Assembly (NCBI RefSeq): GCF_000294655.1
Contig: NZ_CAHP01000001.1
Location: 101,659-165,658 of the forward strand
DNA: 64,000 nucleotides
Reading direction: 5' to 3'
From: Magnetospirillum molischianum DSM 120
GTDB taxonomy: Bacteria; Pseudomonadota; Alphaproteobacteria; Rhodospirillales; Magnetospirillaceae
Shown: piece after piece, positions 45,974-63,619 of the stretch
How positions within the stretch are numbered: the stretch's first letter is position 1
Layout of the letters: each line of letters starts with the position of its first letter
Notes under the pieces: model-generated
The model's input: only the letters and a program-made list of their open reading frames with translations
What the model was told of the DNA's origin: nothing
Databases searched by the model: none
Program-made: the position numbers and the translations under genes

Positions 45974-46396
45974 TCAGGGCGCGGTGTTGGTGCGGGCCCA
46001 GATTCCATCTTCGAAGGCGATATAAGACTCGATCATCGCCCGGTAAATCCGTTCGATCAGGGCCGGGTCGGCACCGCGTTCTTCTGCCAGGGCGCGGACC
46101 TTGGTGATGATGCGTTCGATGCGGGGCACATCGACGACCTCGCTTCGGGTCTGTTTGAACTTCGTCGCTTGGGCGACATAGGCCGCCCGTTCAGCCAGCA
46201 ACGGCACGATCATCCGGTCGATCCGGTCGATATTGGTGCGTACTTCGTCGAGCGAGTCGCACGAAACGGCTGCGGGTGGGCTGTTGCTCTGCGGCTGTCC
46301 CTCGGCGCTTGATGCCGCTTCGGAAGAGATCAGGATGCCGCCGCCGATAATGGCGACAAGACCCCAGGAAAAAGCACGTCTCATCATCCGCTTCAT
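45974..46396 (-). CDS. Exported chorismate mutase (AroQ type)
   Basis: Converts chorismate to prephenate, probably in the periplasm. The 140-residue product starts MKRMMRR, followed by a hydrophobic stretch and a cleavage site near SSAEG, a good Sec signal peptide. After a short Ser/Pro linker (about residues 35-42) comes an AroQ-like helical domain. It is identical at 76 of 97 positions to the cytoplasmic copy encoded next door at 46480. The signal peptide shares 14 of 22 residues with the first helix of DctA, including MKRMM and LVAII, and the DNA also matches, so the leader was probably copied from dctA. Confidence 0.82.
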   Translation of the reverse strand: MKRMMRRAFSWGLVAIIGGGILISSEAASSAEGQPQSNSPPAAVSCDSLDEVRTNIDRIDRMIVPLLAERAAYVAQATKFKQTRSEVVDVPRIERIITKVRALAEERGADPALIERIYRAMIESYIAFEDGIWARTNTAP

Positions 46397-46415
46397 TCGA
46401 AAGTCTTTCCCGCCT
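46331..46415 (-). repeat. Chorismate mutase leader, copy 2 of the dctA start region
   Basis: 85 bp around the start of the exported chorismate mutase gene, about 60 of 85 bases like 45547-45631. The shared part includes the ribosome site area, ATGAA, GATGATGAG and the LVAII codons. Confidence 0.65.
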
Positions 46416-46479
46416 AGTCTGACGCTGTGAATGTGCCTGCGCACCGTCTTTTGATCCGTTCCCGCTTGAACAGGACCAG

Positions 46480-46779
46480 CTAGGGAGCGGAATGGGTGTG
46501 GGCCCAGATTCCATCCTCGAACGCGATATAAGATTCGATCAACGCCCGATAGATCCGTTCGATCAGCGCCGGATCGGTGTTTGCCTCCACGGCCAGGGCG
46601 CGGACTTTGACGATGATGTCTTCAATGCGGGGGACATCGACCACGGCACCGCGAGTCGGCTTGAACCCGGCGGCCTGGGAGACATAACCCGCCCGTTCGG
46701 CCAACAGCGGCACGATGATGCGGTCAAGGCGGTCGATGTTGGCGCGCACCTCGTCGAGCGAGCCGCAGGAAACGGTCAT
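46480..46779 (-). CDS. Cytoplasmic chorismate mutase (AroQ type)
   Basis: Small all-helical chorismate mutase, 99 residues from the ATG at 46779 with AAGGA 7-8 nt upstream. SLDEVRANIDRLDRIIVPLLAER begins helix 1 with its active-site arginine. FKPTRGAVVDVPRIEDII and LIESYIAFE follow, a pattern shared with PchB-type enzymes. No signal peptide is present, so it acts in the cytoplasm on phenylalanine and tyrosine synthesis. It lies 14 nt after gshA and 83 nt before its exported duplicate. An isochorismate lyase role cannot be excluded by eye. Confidence 0.85.
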   Translation of the reverse strand: MTVSCGSLDEVRANIDRLDRIIVPLLAERAGYVSQAAGFKPTRGAVVDVPRIEDIIVKVRALAVEANTDPALIERIYRALIESYIAFEDGIWAHTHSAP

Positions 46780-46793
46780 GAAGCTGTCCTTAT

Positions 46794-48161
46794 TTAGTAG
46801 GCATATTCGGAAAAGAGAGGATCGACGCAGCCACCCCACCGATCGGTGAAGGCCTCAAGCATCTCCTCGGCGGCAGTACAGCCAGTTCGAGCGATGGTTT
46901 CAAGCGGCGCAAGATAAATACTTTCGTCCCGACCGGATTCTGTGCGGCGGTCGCGGCGGTGCAGCCCATCGGCGGCCAGTACCAGCATGTCGATGGCGAT
47001 GTCGCGGGCCGTCCGTCCAGCAATCGGGGTGTCCAGGCCCTGGCGGGCGATGTCCACGCGCAGGGCCTCGCGATCCTGGGCGGTCCAGGTCTTGACCAAT
47101 TCCCAAGCCCCGTCTAACGCGATGGAATCATACAGCAACCCGGTCCACAGCGCGGGCAGCGCCACCAGACGCCGCCACGGTCCGCCATCGGCACCGCGCA
47201 TCTCCAGGAACTTCTTCAGCCGCACATCGGGGAAGGCGGTGGTGAGATGGTCGGCCCAATCGCCCTGGGTCGGCAACTCGCCCGGCAGCGCCGGGAGTCG
47301 GCCTTCCATGAAATCGCGGAAGCTTTGCCCGGCGGCATCGATGTAGCGGCCGTTGCGGTAGACAAAGTACATCGGTACGTCGAGCATCCAATCGACGTAG
47401 CGTTCGAATCCCATCCCTTCGTCGAAGGCGAACGGCAACCCGCCGGTGCGGGCCGGATCGGTGTCGGTCCAGACGTCGGCGCGGGCTGACAGCAATCCGC
47501 AGGGGCGGCCCTCGATAAAGGGCGAACTGGCGAACAGGGCGGTAGCAATCGGCTGTAGCGCCAATGACACGCGCAGCTTGCGCACCATGTCGGATTCGGA
47601 GGCGAAGTCGAGATTGACCTGCACGGTACAGGTCCGCAACATCATGTCGATCCCCTTGGACCCGACCCGAGGCATGTGGCGGCCCATGATGTCATAGCGG
47701 CCCTTTGGCATCCATGGGATGTCCTCGCGCCGCCATTTGGGCTGGAACCCGACGCCAAGGAAGCCGATCCCCAGCGGCTCGGCCACGGACTTGACCTGTT
47801 CCAGGTGGGCGGTGACCTCATCGGCGGTCTGGTGCAGGGTCTCCATCAGCCCGCCGGACAGTTCAAGTTGTCCGCCCGGCTCCAGCGTTACCGATGCGCC
47901 CTGCGAGTCGGTCAGGGCGATGACGTTGCCGTCCTCGGCGATCGGTTGCCAGCCCAGGGCGGTCAGACCGTTCAGCATTGTCTTGATGCCGCGCGGCCCC
48001 TCATAGGGAAGCGGCTTCAGATCTTCGAGGGTAAAGCCGAATTTTTCGTGTTCGGTTCCGATACGCCAAGCCTCTTTCGGCTTGCATCCGGCCTCCAAAG
48101 CCTCAACCAATTGGCGCGTTCCGGTGACCGGCTCCGCGCTGGGCACGGCTGGTGCGGACAT
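46794..48161 (-). CDS. gshA: Glutamate-cysteine ligase
   Basis: First enzyme of glutathione synthesis. The 455 residues belong to the GCS2/plant-alphaproteobacterial class: RIGTEHEKFGF near the N-terminus binds substrate, LEPGGQLELSGG follows, and MPRVGSKGIDMMLRTCTVQVNLD and SSPFIEGRPCGLLSARADVWTDTD are hallmark segments. It ends LFSEYAY, as family members do. The two chorismate mutase genes follow in the same direction and share its terminator, so they probably form one transcription unit. Confidence 0.95.
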   Translation of the reverse strand: MSAPAVPSAEPVTGTRQLVEALEAGCKPKEAWRIGTEHEKFGFTLEDLKPLPYEGPRGIKTMLNGLTALGWQPIAEDGNVIALTDSQGASVTLEPGGQLELSGGLMETLHQTADEVTAHLEQVKSVAEPLGIGFLGVGFQPKWRREDIPWMPKGRYDIMGRHMPRVGSKGIDMMLRTCTVQVNLDFASESDMVRKLRVSLALQPIATALFASSPFIEGRPCGLLSARADVWTDTDPARTGGLPFAFDEGMGFERYVDWMLDVPMYFVYRNGRYIDAAGQSFRDFMEGRLPALPGELPTQGDWADHLTTAFPDVRLKKFLEMRGADGGPWRRLVALPALWTGLLYDSIALDGAWELVKTWTAQDREALRVDIARQGLDTPIAGRTARDIAIDMLVLAADGLHRRDRRTESGRDESIYLAPLETIARTGCTAAEEMLEAFTDRWGGCVDPLFSEYAY

Positions 48162-55380: not shown

Positions 55381-57447
55381 TTAGCCCTTTTTGACCTCGG
55401 TGACGAACTCGCCGACATTGTGGCGCAAACGGGCGCTTTCCCCGTTCAGTCGATCGGCCAGGGCCGTCAGTTCGCTTGCGGCGTTGACGGTGGCCCGTTC
55501 GGCTTCCAACACCCGTGCGATCGAGTTCGATACTTCCGAGGTGCCCTGGGCCGCCTGCTGGACGTTGCGGGCGATTTCCTGGGTTGCGGCTCCCTGTTCC
55601 TCGACCGCCGAAGCGATGCCGATCGTATATTGGTTGACGGTGGCGATGGTATTGCTGATGCCGATGATGGCGTTGACCGCCCGGTCGGTTTCGGCCTGAA
55701 TCTCGGCGACCTGGGCCTGGATGTCGTCGGTGGCTCGCGCGGTCTGATTGGCCAGTGTCTTGACCTCTCCGGCGACGACGGCAAAACCCTTGCCCGCCTC
55801 GCCCGCGCGGGCGGCCTCGATTGTCGCGTTCAGCGCCAGCAGGTTGGTCTGTGACGCGATGTCGGTAATCAGGCTTACAACGTCGCCGATCCGCCGTGCC
55901 GCGTCGGCCAGGCCGCGGACTGTGGCGCTGGTGCTTTCTGCCTCTTGAACGGCGCTGTTCATCGCCGCCGCCGTTTCGGTCACCCGGCGCGAGATTTCCT
56001 GAATGCTGTTCGAGAGTTCCTCGGCGGCGGCGGCAACGGTCTGGACGTTGCTGCTGGCATTGTCGGCGGCGGTGGCGACGACGCTTGATTGCTCGGTGGT
56101 GGTGGCCGAGGTCGCCGACAGCGTTTCGGTCGCGGTGCGCAGGCCATTGATGGCGTTCGAGACCCCGCCGACCACCGTGTCGATCGATTCGACAAAGCCG
56201 GAGGTAACCGTCTCGACCCGCTGGCGGCGCTCGTCACGGGTGCGGGCGGCGGCGGCTTCCTGCTGGGCGAGTTTGTCCGTCTCGCGGGCCTTGTCACGGA
56301 GAATCTCGATAGCCTTTGCCATCCGTCCGGTCTCGTCGTTGCGGTCGGCATAGGGAACGACAAAATCGCGCGAACCCGAGGCGAATTCGTCGATAACGCT
56401 GGTCAGGCGAGCCAGTGGGACGATGACGCGGCGATTGATGCCAAGCACAGCTATCGTCAGGGTCACTGCCGCTGCGCTGAGGAGCAGACCGACGAAGAAC
56501 AGGTTGCGTCCGGCGTGGGCATGATTCTCTGTTGCGGTGCGTGCGGCTTCCTCAATGGCGGCATCGCGCATCAGCATGATCGATTGCAGCATCGGGGAGC
56601 TGAGTCGTCGCCACTCGGCCTGATCCAGGTCATAGGCGCCATCGCTCATCGCAGCCTTCGCCACGCGGTCGCGCAGCGGCTTGAACTGGGCAAAGAATCC
56701 AGCATCGACCTTTTCTACGCCCCCGCGCAGGATGGCGGGGCTTTCGGGGGAACCGGCCTGCTCACTTATATGTTCCCACAATTGGCGCATACGGCCCTGG
56801 GTTGTATCGACCTCTTGCATGGTCTCGGGCGAGAACGGTTTGCCTGAGGTGATGGCGACGGTATATATCGTCGAGAGACGCCCGGCCTGATCGCGGAGGT
56901 TCCAGGTGGCCGTCGCCAGCGCGGCCGGATAGGCAACCTCGGCATCCAGGACGCTTAATCTGCGTTCGATTCTGGCATTACTCCGGCCGACCGTGTGCAG
57001 CATGGTGTACATCGCCTCAAGGTAGTCCTTGCGGAAGGCGTCGGTTTTTTCATGGTCGCCTCCCATGAGGGCGTCGGCCTTGCTCCGCCAGACGTTCACC
57101 TCGGCCCGGATCTTCATCAGTTTGTCGATGGCATCGTGAAATTCGGGTGCCGAGGAGTCTTTGGAAATCCGTGTGATGCGCTCGAACGCCGCATCGACTC
57201 TGGCACGGGTTTCAGTCAGAACCTTGCGAGAGGCCGCATCGCCGTCCAGTGCAACATTGGTCGCGCCACGTTCGGGTGCCAAGGCTTCAGAAACCTGGGT
57301 TGCCGCCCCCAGCAGGTCAACCAGATCTCCCGCTTCTCTAGATGCGTGAAAATCATGCCAATTTTCAGCAAGTAAAAGTATTGCGGTAATGACCAGAAAG
57401 GCGCTGACAGCGGCCAGACAGGTCGATACAAAACTTTTGATTGACAT
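55381..57447 (-). CDS. Methyl-accepting chemotaxis protein
   Basis: 688-residue transmembrane chemoreceptor. One helix at about 9-28 and another at about 322-345 flank a large helical periplasmic domain. Its early [12 protein letters not shown] resembles the nitrate/nitrite-sensing (NIT) type, which I offer only as a hint. A HAMP domain follows ([15 protein letters not shown]), and then a signalling domain with the hairpin tip [26 protein letters not shown]. No CheR/CheB-binding NWETF-like pentapeptide is visible at the end (EVKKG). There is no che gene nearby. Confidence 0.95.
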
Positions 57448-57853: not shown

Positions 57854-59278
57854 GTGAGAGCACGTAGTGTGATGTTGGCCGTGCCGGTGGCCGTGATGGC
57901 CCTGGTATCATCTTCCGCATGGGCGCAGCCTGCCAGTTCTGAACGCGCTTTGGACGACCAGCGCCGCCTGTCCGAGGGCGTGCGCGAAACCGATGCAGCG
58001 TCACGTGCCGCGATGGAGCGGGGATTGACCGGTGGTCCCGAAGTCACCTGGGAACAGGTCCGGCGCAATCCCGACGATCCCGGACTGAATGCCGCTTGGG
58101 CGCGAACCCAGATCATGCGTGGCGATCTTCTGGGGGCGTCGGCGACGCTGGAACGAATTCTGATGCGTTACCCCGCCGCAACCGAAGCGCGGCTGGTGCA
58201 CGGTCTGGTGCTGTTCCGTCTCGACGATACCACGACAGCCAAAAGCGAGTTGGAGTCGATCGATCCCGCCCAGTTGACCCCGGCCCAGCGGGCCGAGCGC
58301 GATCAGGTGTTGGCTCAGATCGAGCAGCGGACCAAGCGGTTGCGTCAGGCCGTTACGATCGCCCTGGGCAGCCATTTCGATTCCAACCGCAATTCCTCGC
58401 CCAGTTCAGGGGAAATCCTGATCAACAATCTGCCTTTTACCCTGGAGGGCAGCGCCGAGAAGCGGGCGGATTGGGGACGGGTCGGAGTGGCGTCCTATGA
58501 ATTCGACTACGACCTCGGCACCGATCCGCGTCTGTCGCTGTTTGGCGCGCTGAATTTGCTGGGCGACCGTCAATCGACTCTCAAGACCTATGATACCGTT
58601 GCCGGTGGGGCGACAACCGGGGTGCGTTATGTCGATGGGCCGATCGGAGCCCAGTTCGGCGCGTTCTGGAACAGCATGGCGATGAACGACGATTACTATC
58701 TCAGCGATTACGGACTCGACGGACGGTTCACCTATCGGCTGGCCCCGGCCTGGGAGGCATTCACCACCCTGCGGCTCGATCGTCAGGTTTTCCATAATAT
58801 CTCGTCCGATCAGGTCGCTACCGACAGCAGCGGCGTTGTCCTGACGTCCTGGTTTGGTGGCGTTTGGCATCCCGACGAGGCGCACAACGTGTCGTTGTCG
58901 GCGGGCTTCGCACGCCGGAATGCCGCCGCCGGTTATATGTCGAACGACCGCTGGGCCGGCCGGTTGGGCGACACATGGTTGCTGGGCAAAGGGCAATTCA
59001 TCTCGGCTGTCGCCGAATTGGGGGTCGCGCTCTATGATAAGAGCAATCCGACCTTCAGTTCCCAGATCCGGCGCGACAGTGACGGGCGTTTCGACCTGAC
59101 CTATGGTGTTCCGGTGGGAACGGTCGCCGAAACGGTTGGGCTTGATGCGCCGGATCAGTTGCGCGAAGTGATTCTGTCGGTCACCGGCGAGTATTACCGT
59201 TCGTTGTCGAACCTGCCCAACTATACTTATGCCAATCTCCGGACCCAGGCGCTGGTGTCCAGACGGTGGGAGTTCTGA
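57854..59278 (+). CDS. Slam-like outer-membrane protein (TPR plus DUF560-type barrel)
   Basis: Probable type XI secretion translocon. From the GTG at 57854 (GGGGAGAG 5 nt upstream) the 474 residues start with a signal peptide ending SSAWAQ. TPR-like helices follow at about residues 60-165 (NPDDPGLNAAWARTQIMRG and a second, similar unit). A beta-rich barrel of about 300 residues comes next, with alternating aromatic strands and a terminal SRRWEF, a final phenylalanine as in outer-membrane barrels. This layout is that of Slam (surface lipoprotein assembly modulator). The gene lies 2 nt before a TbpB-barrel cargo candidate. A different TPR-porin role remains possible. Confidence 0.75.
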   Translation: MRARSVMLAVPVAVMALVSSSAWAQPASSERALDDQRRLSEGVRETDAASRAAMERGLTGGPEVTWEQVRRNPDDPGLNAAWARTQIMRGDLLGASATLERILMRYPAATEARLVHGLVLFRLDDTTTAKSELESIDPAQLTPAQRAERDQVLAQIEQRTKRLRQAVTIALGSHFDSNRNSSPSSGEILINNLPFTLEGSAEKRADWGRVGVASYEFDYDLGTDPRLSLFGALNLLGDRQSTLKTYDTVAGGATTGVRYVDGPIGAQFGAFWNSMAMNDDYYLSDYGLDGRFTYRLAPAWEAFTTLRLDRQVFHNISSDQVATDSSGVVLTSWFGGVWHPDEAHNVSLSAGFARRNAAAGYMSNDRWAGRLGDTWLLGKGQFISAVAELGVALYDKSNPTFSSQIRRDSDGRFDLTYGVPVGTVAETVGLDAPDQLREVILSVTGEYYRSLSNLPNYTYANLRTQALVSRRWEF

Positions 59279-59280
59279 CC

Positions 59281-60972
59281 ATGCGCCAAGCCTCTTACGG
59301 TGTCTCGGCGGCGCTGGCTTCGGCGCTGGCCCTGTCCGGCCCGGCCCTGGCTGCCGATGGTATTCCTGTCGGCACGGCGGGCGGGCTGCATGGGTCGGTG
59401 CAACTTGCCGCCGCAGGTTTCGATGCCGAGCGTCGGCCGGTTGGGCGCCAGATCGGCAGCGGCGATCCGATCTATCAGGGTGACCTGATTGTCACTGGTC
59501 CCGGCGGCGGGCTCCAGGTGATGTTGCTCGATCAGACCATCGTTACATTGGGCGAGAATGCCCGGATGACGATTGACGACATCGCCTTTAACCCGGCCAA
59601 CGGAGATGGAAAGATCGAGTTCGGTGTCGAGCAGGGCACATTCCGCTTCATCAGCGGTCAGGTCGCCCAGGCTCGGCCGGATAACGTCAACATCCGGGTG
59701 CCGATGGGGAACATTGGGATTCGCGGCACCATCGTCGGCGGTGTCGTCAGCCCGACGGAGACCTTGGTCGCCCTGTTGGGGCCGGGTGGCGAGACCGACA
59801 GCTCGGCTCGCCATGGGGCCATCGTCGTGACCACCCCCGGCGGATCGGTCGATATCTCCCGAACCGGCTTCGCCAGCCAGATGTTTTTCGGCCAGCCGCC
59901 GCTTCCACCGGCTCCGTTGACGCCAGCTCAATTGCAGTCATTGAATCGAGCGGCCGCCGCGCCGCCGCAATCGTCCAGCCCGCCGCCTGCTGCGGGAGCG
60001 GGGGTTTCTGCTTCAGCGGTGAGCGGGGAGTCGGGTGCGGTTGGGGGGCGATTTGTCAACGTCGTTACCACTGGCACAACGTTCCAGGGCGCGGCCGACA
60101 AGCGCAACGAGGCCAGCAACGGTGCATTCGTCACCATCTCGTTGGCTTATGTTCCGACTCTGGCCGATTCGATCGGAACGGCGTTGACGGTCAGACCCGA
60201 CATCAACATTCGGGGGCTTGAAGAAACCTGCGATATGACGTGCCAGAGTCCCAGCGCCCAGCATGACTATGCTGAGATCGAATATGATGGTTTCAATAAG
60301 TCCCTCACATATACCAAGGCTGGTGTCACCCTCAGAAGTGTTGGATCGAGTCCTGTGCGGCTTAATACCCTGACCCAGGATGCACTCACTAAAATCGATG
60401 TCTATTCCGGTAGTGGTGGAACCGTTTTTTACGATTATCATCACGTTGATGGATTGCTCTATTCGACCTATGGGTATTTCGTCGAAACGTGGAGCAACGA
60501 TGAGACGCGCCACCTTGTCGCGCTTGGAACGGGTATCCCCACGCCCCGAGCACAGATGCCGAATTCGGGATCGGCGACTTATTCCGGTGGTACTGTCGGC
60601 TATCTCACCATCGGACATGGCCAAGAATCGTCGGCGACGTTTACCGGGACCGCCACACTGACCGCCAATTTCTCCGCCGGTTCGATCGGAGGGAGCCTCC
60701 GCAGCCTCTCGACGACGATGCCGGACGTCACGATGGGCAATATCGCTCTGAGCAACGGTGTCATCGGCGGCAACATGTTCGGCAACGGTGTTGCGACCGG
60801 GACGGTTACCCATATGCAATCCCCGACCGATATTCACGGTAGTTTCAGTGGTGGCTTCAACGGTCCCAGCGCCAAGGAAATCGCGGGAACCTATCAGATG
60901 AACAACTCCACCGCGCCGAACTTTTCCGATGTCCCGATGAGCGTCGTGGGATCGTTTGGGGCGAAGAAATAG
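59281..60972 (+). CDS. FecR-domain protein with TbpB-like C-terminal barrel, probable Slam cargo
   Basis: Exported 563-residue protein. The Sec signal peptide ends GPALA-ADG with no lipobox cysteine, so it is soluble. A FecR domain covers about residues 60-170 (LIVTGPGGGLQVMLLD, VEQGTFRFISGQVA, VRVPMGNIGIRGTIVGG). A Pro/Ser/Ala-rich linker follows (about 205-260). The C-terminal part from about 428 carries the transferrin-binding-protein-B type barrel signature: SATYSGGTVGY, LTANFSAGSIGG, SFSGGFNGPSAKEIAGTY at 521-538 and a terminal VVGSFGAKK. Such barrels mark cargo of Slam translocons. The middle section (60230-60480) is less G+C-rich and has a CDMTC cysteine pair. Confidence 0.8.
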   Translation: MRQASYGVSAALASALALSGPALAADGIPVGTAGGLHGSVQLAAAGFDAERRPVGRQIGSGDPIYQGDLIVTGPGGGLQVMLLDQTIVTLGENARMTIDDIAFNPANGDGKIEFGVEQGTFRFISGQVAQARPDNVNIRVPMGNIGIRGTIVGGVVSPTETLVALLGPGGETDSSARHGAIVVTTPGGSVDISRTGFASQMFFGQPPLPPAPLTPAQLQSLNRAAAAPPQSSSPPPAAGAGVSASAVSGESGAVGGRFVNVVTTGTTFQGAADKRNEASNGAFVTISLAYVPTLADSIGTALTVRPDINIRGLEETCDMTCQSPSAQHDYAEIEYDGFNKSLTYTKAGVTLRSVGSSPVRLNTLTQDALTKIDVYSGSGGTVFYDYHHVDGLLYSTYGYFVETWSNDETRHLVALGTGIPTPRAQMPNSGSATYSGGTVGYLTIGHGQESSATFTGTATLTANFSAGSIGGSLRSLSTTMPDVTMGNIALSNGVIGGNMFGNGVATGTVTHMQSPTDIHGSFSGGFNGPSAKEIAGTYQMNNSTAPNFSDVPMSVVGSFGAKK

Positions 60973-60979
60973 GGCGCGC

Positions 60980-63619
60980 TTATCTCGCCTCCGATCCGCC
61001 ACCGCCCCAGCGCGCCAGGGTGGCGGCCAGGATCGGCCGGCGGATTGGCTTGGACAGGTAATCGTCCATACCGGCGGCCAGACAGCGGTCGCGGTCGCCT
61101 TCCATGGCGTTGGCGGTCATCGCGATCACCGGCACCCGTGCTTGCGGGCCGTCGAGCGATCGAATCAGCTGGGTGGCCCGATACCCATCCATGTCGGGCA
61201 ATTGCACGTCCATCAGGACCAGATCGAAAGTGTTGCGCACCACCATCGCAACGCCTTCGACGGCGTTCGAGGCGATTTCGACGTCGTGCCCCAGAGACGA
61301 GAGGAACCCCCGCGCGACCTCTTGATTGATCCGGTTGTCTTCGACCAGCAAGATATGCAGCGACGGGCCGGTCGCGGGGCGTTCCGATGCCGACGGTTGG
61401 GGTTCTTCGGGGGCGGAGGTCGCTGTCAGGTCGCGGGCCAGACGCAGGGCGTGGATCGGCTTGGTCGTTACCACCACATTTTCCAATGTTTCCGCAATCG
61501 CTCGGGCCGATGCGTCATTGACCGTCAGTACGCAGCGCGTGGCGGCGAAGAACGGTTCGGCTTTCAGCATCACCAAAAGATCGGTCCCGGTGACGAACGG
61601 CATGTCGTGATCGACAACCAATGCGTCGAACGGGGTTCCGCCACTTTGGGCGGCCCGCGCTGTTGCCAATGCCTCGGGAGCCGAGGCTGCCTGTATGACG
61701 TCCGCGCCCAGCGCTGTTAGGTCGGCGGTCAGGAGGGTGGCGGCCTGAATTCCGTTTTCGACGAGCAGCAGCGACAGGCCAGCCAAAGGCCGTTCGAGCG
61801 GGCGGGGGGGAGACGAGCGAACGAGGGGAAGGCGGATGAGGAAGGTGCTGCCCTGGCCTTCGGCGCTGGAGAAGTTGATCTTGCCGCCCATCACTTTCGC
61901 CAGCTTGAGCGAGATCGCCAGTCCTAAGCCAGTGCCGCCGAACCGGCGCGAGGTCGAGGAATCCGCCTGAATGAATTTGTCGAACAGCCGTTCCTGCGCC
62001 GCCGCCGGAATGCCGATGCCGGTATCTTCGATCGTAATCGTCAAAAATCCATCGACATAATCGGCACTCAACCGAACCGTGCCGAATTCCGTGAATTTGA
62101 CGGCATTGCCGAGTAGGTTCAGCATGATCTGGCGGATACGAACCTCGTCACCGATAAAGGTGGCGTCGGCCTCGGGCGCGATCGAGAACAGCAGATCGAC
62201 GGATTTTCCTTTCAAGCGCGGGCTGACGATATCGATGCCGCCTTCAATCAAGGTGCGCAGGCAAAACGGCTGTTCGTCGATGTCGAAATGGCCGGCTTCG
62301 ATTTTCGAATAATCCAGGATATCGTTGATGATGGTCAGCAGCGATTCCGCCGAGGCGTGGATGGTGTCGGCCATCCTCCGCTGATCCTCGGTCAGTGGCG
62401 TGTCGAGCAGAAGGTCGGTCATCCCGACGATACCGTTCATCGGGGTGCGGATTTCGTGGCTCATTGTCGCCAGGAATTCCGATTTGATCCGGGTCGCCGA
62501 TTCCGCCTCTTCCTTGGCGGCGATCAGGGCGTCGCGGGTGCGGCGCAGATCGGTGACATCGTTGATGCCGAGGAGCAGCGCCTCGTCCCCGCCGATCTCC
62601 AGCGTGCGGCCCGACACCATTCCCCAGAAGGTTGAGCCGTCGTGGCGGCGGAACAGAATCTCGCGGTCGGTTGAATGGTCCAGCGCGGCGGCCTCGACTT
62701 CGGTCCAGGAAGCGGCGTCGAGAAAGGCGGTGGCAGGGATGCCTTGGGGATCGGTGCCGTCGCCCAGTACCGCATCGCGCATCAGGGGGTTGGCATAGAT
62801 CACCGTTCCATTCGCCCGCGACAACAAAACGATCATGACCGGCATCGATTCAATGATCAGGCGCAGGTGCTGCTCGCCTTCGCGGACGATCTGTTCGGCG
62901 GCTTTTTCCTCCTGGAGGCGGAGGAGTTTGCGGGCATGGCAACGGAACACGTCAAGCGAGCGGGCGATATCGCCGATCTCGTCCTTGCGGTACAGGGCTG
63001 GGATCTCGGCGACGTCCTCGCCCCGCGCCAGTCGCAGCATCACCGAACTGATGTTGCAGATCGGGTAGGTCAGACTGCGGAAGGTAATGATGATGAAGCT
63101 GGCCAGGAACAGAAACGCGCCGATCAGCGCCGACGCTCCTTCCATCGTCGCCTGACGAACGGCGGAATCGAGTGCGTCACGCGAGTAATAGATCCTCAGG
63201 CGCCCGACTTTTACCGGCCCTTCGTTGGACGAGTGAATCACCGGCAGGTCGATCAGAAGGGAGGAATCAATCGGACGGTCGTTCCCGATGAAACCGATCT
63301 GAACCCCTTCGACATCGTTGACGAAGACGGCGACGATCTCGGGGTCCGAGCGCAGCGCGTCGAGTTGGGTCGTTACCAGCTCGTAATCGTAATCGTAGAT
63401 CGGTCGTGACAGCGACCGTGCGGTGAAAAGAGCGGTTCGGTTCATCTCGGTCGCCAGGGCTGACAATCCGGCTTCCCGCATCTCCCACAGCCCGATCAGG
63501 CCGATGATTGTGATGGCCAGGAACGACCCGCCAAGGACGGCAAGCAACGCTGTGCTTCCCAAAGGAAGAAGGCGCATTTCGGCTTTGTCTGGCGGATCGG
63601 GAGACGGTGATGTCGTCAT
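60980..63619 (-). CDS. Hybrid sensor histidine kinase with two receiver domains
   Basis: 879-residue membrane kinase. Two membrane helices (about 22-47 and 163-182) flank a short periplasmic sensor. HAMP and PAS domains (about 250-370) follow, with ESMPVMIVLLSRANGTVIYANP. The HisKA domain has H388 in SHEIRTPMNGIVGM, and the HATPase domain has NLLGNAVKFTE and GTGLGLAIS. A first receiver-like domain keeps VVDHDMP but is otherwise divergent. The second receiver is classical, with D804 in LVLMDVQLPDMDG. No separate response regulator is nearby. It is divergent from the periplasmic binding protein gene at 63691, 71 nt away. Confidence 0.94.
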   Translation of the reverse strand: MTTSPSPDPPDKAEMRLLPLGSTALLAVLGGSFLAITIIGLIGLWEMREAGLSALATEMNRTALFTARSLSRPIYDYDYELVTTQLDALRSDPEIVAVFVNDVEGVQIGFIGNDRPIDSSLLIDLPVIHSSNEGPVKVGRLRIYYSRDALDSAVRQATMEGASALIGAFLFLASFIIITFRSLTYPICNISSVMLRLARGEDVAEIPALYRKDEIGDIARSLDVFRCHARKLLRLQEEKAAEQIVREGEQHLRLIIESMPVMIVLLSRANGTVIYANPLMRDAVLGDGTDPQGIPATAFLDAASWTEVEAAALDHSTDREILFRRHDGSTFWGMVSGRTLEIGGDEALLLGINDVTDLRRTRDALIAAKEEAESATRIKSEFLATMSHEIRTPMNGIVGMTDLLLDTPLTEDQRRMADTIHASAESLLTIINDILDYSKIEAGHFDIDEQPFCLRTLIEGGIDIVSPRLKGKSVDLLFSIAPEADATFIGDEVRIRQIMLNLLGNAVKFTEFGTVRLSADYVDGFLTITIEDTGIGIPAAAQERLFDKFIQADSSTSRRFGGTGLGLAISLKLAKVMGGKINFSSAEGQGSTFLIRLPLVRSSPPRPLERPLAGLSLLLVENGIQAATLLTADLTALGADVIQAASAPEALATARAAQSGGTPFDALVVDHDMPFVTGTDLLVMLKAEPFFAATRCVLTVNDASARAIAETLENVVVTTKPIHALRLARDLTATSAPEEPQPSASERPATGPSLHILLVEDNRINQEVARGFLSSLGHDVEIASNAVEGVAMVVRNTFDLVLMDVQLPDMDGYRATQLIRSLDGPQARVPVIAMTANAMEGDRDRCLAAGMDDYLSKPIRRPILAATLARWGGGGSEAR

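Follow-up and report, generated by a model that had tools for sequence, protein, structure and literature searches.

A Slam-related outer-membrane protein and its FecR-TbpB-barrel partner in Magnetospirillum molischianum: a candidate for surface display without a lipid anchor

Two adjoining genes of Magnetospirillum molischianum DSM 120 are considered here. They lie within 64,000 nucleotides of contig NZ_CAHP01000001.1, and this whole stretch of analysed DNA is referred to below as the window. The first encodes an outer-membrane protein (OMP) with tetratricopeptide repeats (TPR) that is distantly related to Slam, the translocon of the type XI secretion system (T11SS). The second encodes an exported protein, called the cargo, which combines a FecR-type domain with a C-terminal barrel of the TbpB kind. 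A preliminary description, drawn from the DNA letters, had an outer-membrane barrel protein followed after 2 nt by an exported protein with a TbpB-like barrel; the open reading frames (ORFs), both on the + strand, and the PF01298 match of the cargo agree with this. The OMP has a signal peptide (residues ~1-24), a TPR region (~65-160) and a C-terminal barrel (~165-474) that ends SNLPNYTYANLRTQALVSRRWEF, while the order in the cargo is signal peptide, FecR/retention-module-like domain, linker, handle and TbpB-like barrel. The parts are as follows.

57854..59278, + strand: OMP, outer-membrane protein of 474 aa with a GTG start, a distant sister of Slam/DUF560
58346..59275, + strand: barrel part of the OMP, Slam-like in the barrel-only profile comparison with Slams
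59281..60972, + strand: cargo, exported partner of 563 aa with an ATG start (Pfam, phmmer, structure match)
59281..59352, + strand: Sec signal peptide of the cargo, SPI-type (..GPALA-A), no lipobox (by reading)
59353..59895, + strand: FecR-type domain of the cargo, residues ~25-205 (PF04773 and structural match to 5ix9)
59896..60045, + strand: Pro/Ala/Ser/Gly-rich linker, residues ~206-255 (from the sequence)
60046..60555, + strand: presumed handle or pedestal, residues ~256-425, the least conserved folded part
60556..60969, + strand: TbpB-like barrel domain with the Slam-cargo signature, residues 426-563 (PF01298)

A scan of the genome collection found orthologous pairs in two Magnetospirillum fulvum genomes, and within the genus both the OMP and the TbpB barrel are confined to the same three of 17 genomes; the gene pair is more than chance. 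The M. fulvum OMPs are 83% and 82% identical to that of the window, and the full-length M. fulvum cargo (locus L004) is less conserved, at 57%. By part, identity to L004 is 83% for the OMP, 71% for the FecR domain and 39% for the handle, and the linker is rich in indels among the relatives. In M. fulvum MGU-K5 (L005:8001-9727) the cargo gene is in two ORFs because of a frameshift in the low-complexity linker, which may be a real change or an assembly error. Between the window and L004, the ratio of nonsynonymous to synonymous substitution rates (dN/dS) is 0.13 for the OMP, 0.23 for the FecR domain, 0.39 for the handle and 0.43 for the barrel, and it exceeds 1 only in the 24-residue signal peptide (1.40).

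The OMP had been labelled 'Slam type'. Since it lies under the cut-off of the Pfam family SlipAM (PF04575), this label needed evidence from profiles. SlipAM is matched at E 0.01 or better by seven of 15 members of the OMP clade, and five ordinary Slams of the order, encoded beside ordinary TbpB-barrel proteins, score 69-88 bits. A profile-profile comparison of the 15 clade members with the five Slams gave a probability of 99.9% over 419 columns, spanning TPR and barrel, and the barrels compared by themselves gave 98.9% over 285 columns; one reversed and three column-shuffled alignments used as controls gave 0.3% or less, and a reversed barrel 0.7%. A quickly built tree of 82 OMPs, in which several branches are long, sets the five Slams apart from the other 77 on a branch with a Shimodaira-Hasegawa-like approximate likelihood ratio (SH-aLRT) support of 100. 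From the missed SlipAM cut-off, the profile match and the split in the tree, the OMP by sequence comparison belongs to a clade that is sister to Slam and is not itself a Slam. The relatedness implied by the label therefore stands, over 419 columns, and the assignment does not; plain Slam membership is not claimed, given the SlipAM result. The nearest OMP relatives (L044 and L070) sit at contig ends, with the C-termini of their partners outside the sequence, and plasmid searches returned no close relative of either the cargo or the OMP. A single-sequence AlphaFold2 (AF2) model of the OMP has a well-folded TPR part and a barrel with a mean predicted local distance difference test score (pLDDT) of 42.5.

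The C-terminus of the cargo is of the kind that accompanies Slams. Residues 426-563 match the entire 126-position Pfam model TbpB_B_D (PF01298) with 47.5 bits (cut-off 26), and FHBP_C is matched with 30.7 bits (cut-off 28.1). The NCBIfam model slam_lipo (NF041636) gives 54.9 bits, below its cut-off of 80, and phmmer against PDB sequences aligns residues 416-562 with TbpB (4qq1) at E 9e-5. From its family membership, the domain is expected to form an 8-strand barrel. The AF2 model of the cargo, built from an 18-row alignment that included FecR segments of adhesins, resolves mainly the FecR part and is of low confidence from residue ~220 onward; structural matches for handle (323-422) and barrel (431-494) were weak, at Z 4.3 or less, and are not used here. 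A profile of the whole C-terminal lobe (handle plus barrel) found TbpB and LbpB in the PDB among many antibody chains, and because of the latter these rows carry little weight. The handle has no Pfam match, and this divergent region is likely the ligand-binding part, for which it is a candidate.

The N-terminal half matches Pfam FecR (PF04773) at residues 69-164 with 35.6 bits (cut-off 24). No cysteine is found on reading near the end of the signal peptide, so that the cargo has no lipobox, and in both respects the earlier description was right. It also regarded FecR on a surface-exported protein as unexpected, FecR being known from iron signalling in the periplasm, and here the comparisons point elsewhere. 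Among solved structures, 5ix9 ('Cell surface anchoring domain') matches the FecR part best, with Z 9.8 over 75 of 76 residues, a root-mean-square deviation of 2.5 and 28% identity; the next row has Z 4.3, and anti-sigma FecR structures have Z 4.0. The same RTX-adhesin domain is found by phmmer against PDB sequences, with residues 56-109 (E 0.019), and the NCBIfam model retention_LapA (NF033682) gives 20.5 bits, below its 50-bit cut-off. Of the 17 cargo relatives that the collection scan gave, 15 match in the FecR domain only; among those listed, most are long, repeat-rich and adhesin-like on reading. According to an excerpt of PMC13090378, adhesins that leave through a type I secretion system or a type Vb system keep the retention module in the periplasm. 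The cargo thus resembles LapA-type RTX adhesins in the fold and sequence of this domain, and in having it N-terminal, before the part thought to be exported. It differs from them in its Sec signal peptide, in the lack of visible RTX repeats and in missing the retention_LapA cut-off.

The Pfam match and the association of TbpB with iron might still suggest ordinary iron signalling with the cargo as a FecR anti-sigma regulator. What the cargo shares with the classical regulators is the PF04773 domain; it has on reading neither a cytoplasmic anti-sigma part nor a transmembrane segment, and neither a sigma-factor gene nor a TonB-receptor gene adjoins the pair. Moreover, a FecR protein of classical layout, with an adjoining sigma-factor-like ORF, is present elsewhere in the genome (by reading). 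The architecture of the cargo and its neighbours refute an anti-sigma FecR in the usual form, and we find this explanation barely credible.

A comparison with ordinary cargo suggests what the domain might do instead. A lipobox-like motif occurs in four of 47 FecR proteins of the class as against nine of ten distinct ordinary TbpB-barrel cargos of the order, on a loose pattern that was applied to the whole region before FecR in the former and to the first 60 residues in the latter. By these counts the FecR module thus occupies the place that the lipid has in ordinary Slam cargo. Release of the LapG type was considered for the linker and rejected: the window linker contains PAAG, none is seen in that of L004, the motif is at chance level across the class, and no LapG was found in the genome, a further difference from LapA-type adhesins.

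The preliminary description treated FecR as an odd effector for such a translocon. The loci of other genomes indicate the opposite. With a profile of the OMP, 65 of 297 genomes of the order are matched at E 1e-3 or better and 38 at 6e-25 or better, and of 30 loci read (most from the order, 23 from a single family) 29 have a FecR gene next to the OMP. In the class (Alphaproteobacteria), 68 of 385 sampled genomes have the OMP clade at E 1.3e-42 or better. At E 1e-10 the number is 89, with true Slams mixed in: of 13 matches read between 1e-32 and 1e-13, 11 score better as Slams and two as members of the OMP clade. As many matches weaker than ~1e-40 are true Slams, the lower figure is the one quoted. 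At the level of the phylum, 44 of 398 genomes match at E 1e-10, again mixed with true Slams, and 11 reach 1.7e-44.

The class search gave 101 places outside the own genome, of which 60 strong loci in 59 genomes were read, covering the strongest range except for six places, as well as 20 weaker loci; CHASE2 and FecR were detected with custom hidden Markov models, and a first-pass FecR model gives the same FecR loci. All 60 OMPs score better with the model of their own clade than with that of Slam. A FecR gene is present at 44 of these loci, on the same strand and within 300 nt at 40 of them, and a CHASE2 cyclase gene lies within 3 kb at 30; Pfam confirms CHASE2 and Guanylate_cyc in all three order-locus cyclases scanned and in that of Paracoccus. 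The 20 weaker matches, nine of which score better as OMP clade and 11 as Slams, provide a control. FecR genes accompany seven of the nine and none of the 11, CHASE2 cyclases three of the nine and none of the 11, and TbpB-type barrel proteins without FecR none of the nine and seven of the 11; in two of the nine (L191 and L192) it is the FecR protein that bears the barrel. Their partners thus set the two kinds of OMP apart, and FecR is the usual companion of the OMP clade (44 of 60 class loci versus 0 of 11 Slam-type loci).

M. molischianum has a second pair of this kind, at G000:C20:1154-3459 (L037), in which an OMP paralogue of 459 aa (P0003) is followed by an exported FecR protein (P0004) of 292 aa with no TbpB barrel; by reading, the pair adjoins glycosyltransferase-like and dTDP-sugar-like genes. 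OMP-clade loci with no FecR gene found in the stretch read include L129, L140, L142-L144, L146-L147, L150-L152, L164 and L171. At L118, L122, L124 and L127, where no FecR gene was found either, a CHASE2-cyclase gene lies beside the OMP gene or overlaps it.

The barrel was then traced on the FecR partners. An iterated profile, seeded with barrels of the window clade, ordinary Slam-cargo barrels and three FecR partners (L145, L148 and L174), matched 20 of 2,989 ORFs, namely 19 FecR proteins, toward the C-terminus, and one Slam lipoprotein. By this measure a Slam-cargo-like barrel is borne by 16 of the 44 class FecR partners (the three seeds included), 11 of which also have a CHASE2 cyclase. With a stricter model, confined to 11 ordinary Slam-cargo barrels and free of FecR proteins, six ORFs were matched at E 1e-3 or better, comprising two copies of the window clade, three other FecR partners and the Slam lipoprotein; reversed ORFs gave no match at E 0.05, and shuffled ORFs gave none. 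A profile of 16 partner C-termini, window clade excluded, found three NHBA/GNA2132 sequences in the PDB at E 3e-9 to 1e-8 and, weakly (E 0.14-0.86), LbpB, two fHbp, TbpB and 1ys5 'lipoprotein', which we take to be fHbp as well; the ninth row (E 2) is unrelated. The C-termini of the f29 partners gave just a 27-column match of 5% with the TbpB barrel. The combination of FecR and TbpB barrel is therefore no one-off. Named examples, each a triad of TPR OMP, FecR-barrel protein and CHASE2 cyclase, are found on plasmid pAMI5 of Paracoccus aminophilus JCM 7686 (WP_020952934.1, WP_020952935.1 and WP_020952936.1) and on plasmid p1 of Shinella sp. H4-D48 (WP_241949018.1, WP_241949017.1 and WP_241949559.1). 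On the OMP tree, the label 'FecR + TbpBBD' requires 12 changes, which is compatible with one origin or with several.

Some FecR partners have long middle regions. That at L173:7435-10683 contains Big_9/cadherin domains, and in those of L156 and L162 over 1200 residues separate FecR from the barrel; it is as if the display unit were able to hold different passengers. FecR and CHASE2-cyclase genes adjoin NHLP bacteriocin export genes in L180 (an Ensifer plasmid) and L190 (a Shinella plasmid).

The window barrel differs from those of the other partners. It scores 71.5 bits with a model made of Slam-cargo barrels only and just 8.2 bits with the model of the other FecR partners' barrels, and so may have been grafted on separately and not be the lobe native to the family. 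GC content is 0.537 in the handle, 0.585 in the barrel and 0.643 in the FecR part. These sequence features agree with a FecR partner onto which a lobe of ordinary Slam cargo has been grafted, in which case the FecR-type OMP would be able to work with ordinary cargo lobes. One might go further and hold that the fusion is a meaningless chimera of the M. fulvum group alone, produced by recombination of a Slam-type lobe onto a FecR partner; the canonical-like barrel, the lower GC of the lobe and the frameshift in one of the three cargo copies (L005) are in keeping with this. It is nevertheless very unlikely in our view, as three genomes carry the fusion, dN/dS is below 1 in every part except the signal peptide, and the same layout, with other barrels, recurs among the class partners.

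The frequent CHASE2 cyclase brings to mind systems in which outer-membrane proteins are connected to such enzymes. CHASE2 cyclase, FecR outer-membrane protein and TPR protein are clustered in Campylobacterota (excerpt of PMC9239204), and in Burkholderia a LysM-FecR protein adjoins a CHASE2 kinase (excerpt of PMC5192318). In Sinorhizobium meliloti, CHASE2 cyclases receive a plant signal only if the OMP NsrA is present (PMC7529298 and PMC13001267, in the passages seen), and the barrel of NsrA is placed at 600-1200 (same passages of PMC7529298). On pSymB of S. meliloti, a 1219-aa ORF beside cyaK (a label that comes from other S. meliloti records) has an N-terminal FecR domain (57 bits) and then TPRs; from its size and place this ORF, unlabelled in the pSymB record, is taken to be NsrA. 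With FecR ahead of TPRs and barrel in one chain, FecR would be on the periplasmic side. Kinship between this NsrA-like barrel and the OMP was looked for and not detected (0.3%, one sequence against an alignment). The clusters resemble the class loci in bringing together FecR, TPRs, an outer-membrane barrel and, at half of the 60 loci, a CHASE2 cyclase. They differ in that the NsrA-like ORF is a single chain with a barrel of no detectable kinship, in that the window pair has no adjoining cyclase, and in that no TbpB barrel is mentioned in the excerpts of the NsrA and Campylobacterota papers.

An alternative built on these systems is that OMP and FecR protein form a receptor of the NsrA type without any export, the barrel remaining periplasmic and the complex signalling, to a CHASE2 cyclase where there is one. 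The cyclases at the class loci, the Paracoccus and Shinella triads, the Campylobacterota and Burkholderia clusters and the FecR partners that have no barrel are all compatible with it. It would leave unexplained why many C-termini are specifically Slam-cargo barrels beside a homologue of Slam, no relationship is detectable between the OMP and the NsrA-like barrel, and no CHASE2 gene adjoins the window pair; we therefore judge it improbable. The one CHASE2 match found in the genome is on another contig (G000:C28, L182:4569-11377), in a cluster of MtxA, CHASE2 cyclase and CHAT/TPR genes. The neighbours of the window pair are instead a chemotaxis receptor and a hybrid kinase, neither of which is claimed as part of the unit.

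55381..57447, - strand: methyl-accepting chemotaxis protein, divergent (HAMP and MCPsignal)
60980..63619, - strand: hybrid histidine kinase, convergent (HisKA, HATPase_c, Response_reg, HAMP and, sub-threshold, PAS_9)

At the position of the chemotaxis receptor, L004 and L005 have a 688-aa ORF with a similar start. Elsewhere in the window, at 45974-46839, two chorismate mutase type II (CM_2) genes adjoin each other, the longer of which begins with a signal-peptide-like stretch.

How might the pair work? We suggest that the OMP, as a relative of Slam, is an outer-membrane translocon with the cargo as its own substrate. Both proteins would reach the periplasm by Sec, as their signal peptides indicate. 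The TPR region and barrel of the OMP would recognise the C-terminal TbpB-like barrel of the cargo, and the C-terminal lobe, handle and barrel, would be passed to the cell surface; this step is modelled on the homology to Slam and Slam cargo and on the pairing of the genes. The FecR-type domain would not be exported and would fold in the periplasm like the LapA-type retention module, with the flexible linker spanning the outer-membrane conduit, so that the cargo would be displayed and tethered without a lipid. That the OMP exports the lobe while FecR stays behind as a non-lipid anchor is a proposal from sequence and analogy which we hold to be about evenly balanced between right and wrong. In the wider family, often with a CHASE2 adenylate/guanylate cyclase gene alongside, the periplasmic FecR domain could in addition signal to the CHASE2 sensor in the inner membrane what state the surface lobe is in. 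The family, widespread in the class, might then consist of trans-outer-membrane receptors derived from T11SS, with the lobe on the surface, FecR as plug, anchor and transmitter, and a CHASE2 cyclase that makes cyclic AMP, the window pair being a variant in which a lobe of ordinary Slam cargo has taken the place of the sensing lobe; this broader scheme is possible but doubtful. As the window copy has no adjoining cyclase, display alone is the safer claim here.

The preliminary description had supposed a soluble secreted cargo. In that case the entire FecR-TbpB-barrel protein would be outside the cell as a Slam-type effector, rather like a haemophore. The signal peptide without a lipobox and the cargo-type C-terminal barrel would accord with this, and soluble T11SS cargos do exist (excerpt of PMC12282271). 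FecR, as the habitual partner of the OMP clade in the lipid's place, is harder to reconcile with it, as are the nearest solved fold, which is a cell-surface anchor, and the NsrA-like ORF, in which one and the same chain has FecR ahead of its TPRs and outer-membrane barrel. Since the anchor domain is periplasmic in its known context (PMC13090378, in the excerpt), a soluble cargo is less likely than a tethered one, and we think it rather unlikely.

A number of observations weigh against a tethered lobe exported by a Slam relative. The OMP gives 16.8 bits with SlipAM (cut-off 22) in a partial match at 244-372, and the alignment behind the model that matches 5ix9 included adhesin FecR segments. 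In the AF2 model of the cargo, pLDDT is below 50 over most of residues 426-563, and the window barrel fits the model of the other FecR partners' barrels poorly. LapG (PF06035) has no match in the genome, and its motif [T/A/P]AAG follows the module in three of 45 class proteins, with 3.5 expected by chance. No barrel is detectable in 28 of the 44 class FecR partners, contig ends truncating at least two of these (L131 and L154), and several partners are too short to have one (P0004 292 aa, L043 300, L149 279, L158 297 and L165 290); there the OMP must do something else or use other cargo. No FecR gene was found at 16 of the 60 class loci, and at four more class loci it is on the opposite strand from the OMP. 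Finally, the S. meliloti FecR protein SMc02177 is needed for infection control and not for signal perception (excerpt of PMC5498481).

The window pair resembles T11SS in having a gene for a TPR and barrel OMP, homologous over its full length, beside one for an exported TbpB-like-barrel protein. It departs from it in an OMP that belongs to a separate clade under the SlipAM cut-off, and in a cargo with FecR and no lipid anchor. The cargo architectures in the excerpt of PMC12282271 include no FecR, and the word was not found when the main texts of the T11SS surveys PMC12282271 and PMC8406197 were searched for it. In the literature searched, FecR and T11SS or 'type XI secretion' nowhere occur together, and 'surface lipoprotein assembly' with FecR gave just a paper on a Lysobacter siderophore. 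The pair thus belongs to a widespread group in related bacteria, often with a CHASE2 cyclase gene, that is apparently undescribed, as the preliminary description had supposed.

An annotation as 'FecR domain-containing protein' need not imply control of iron uptake or of a sigma factor. If the proposal is correct, T11SS cargo can be retained at the cell surface by a protein plug instead of a lipid, which would be an added mechanism, and a partner would be assigned to a branch of Slam relatives that roughly one in six of the class genomes sampled possesses. It would also provide a list of partners (OMP, FecR protein and CHASE2 cyclase) with which to approach the question of how signals at the outer membrane reach CHASE2 cyclases.

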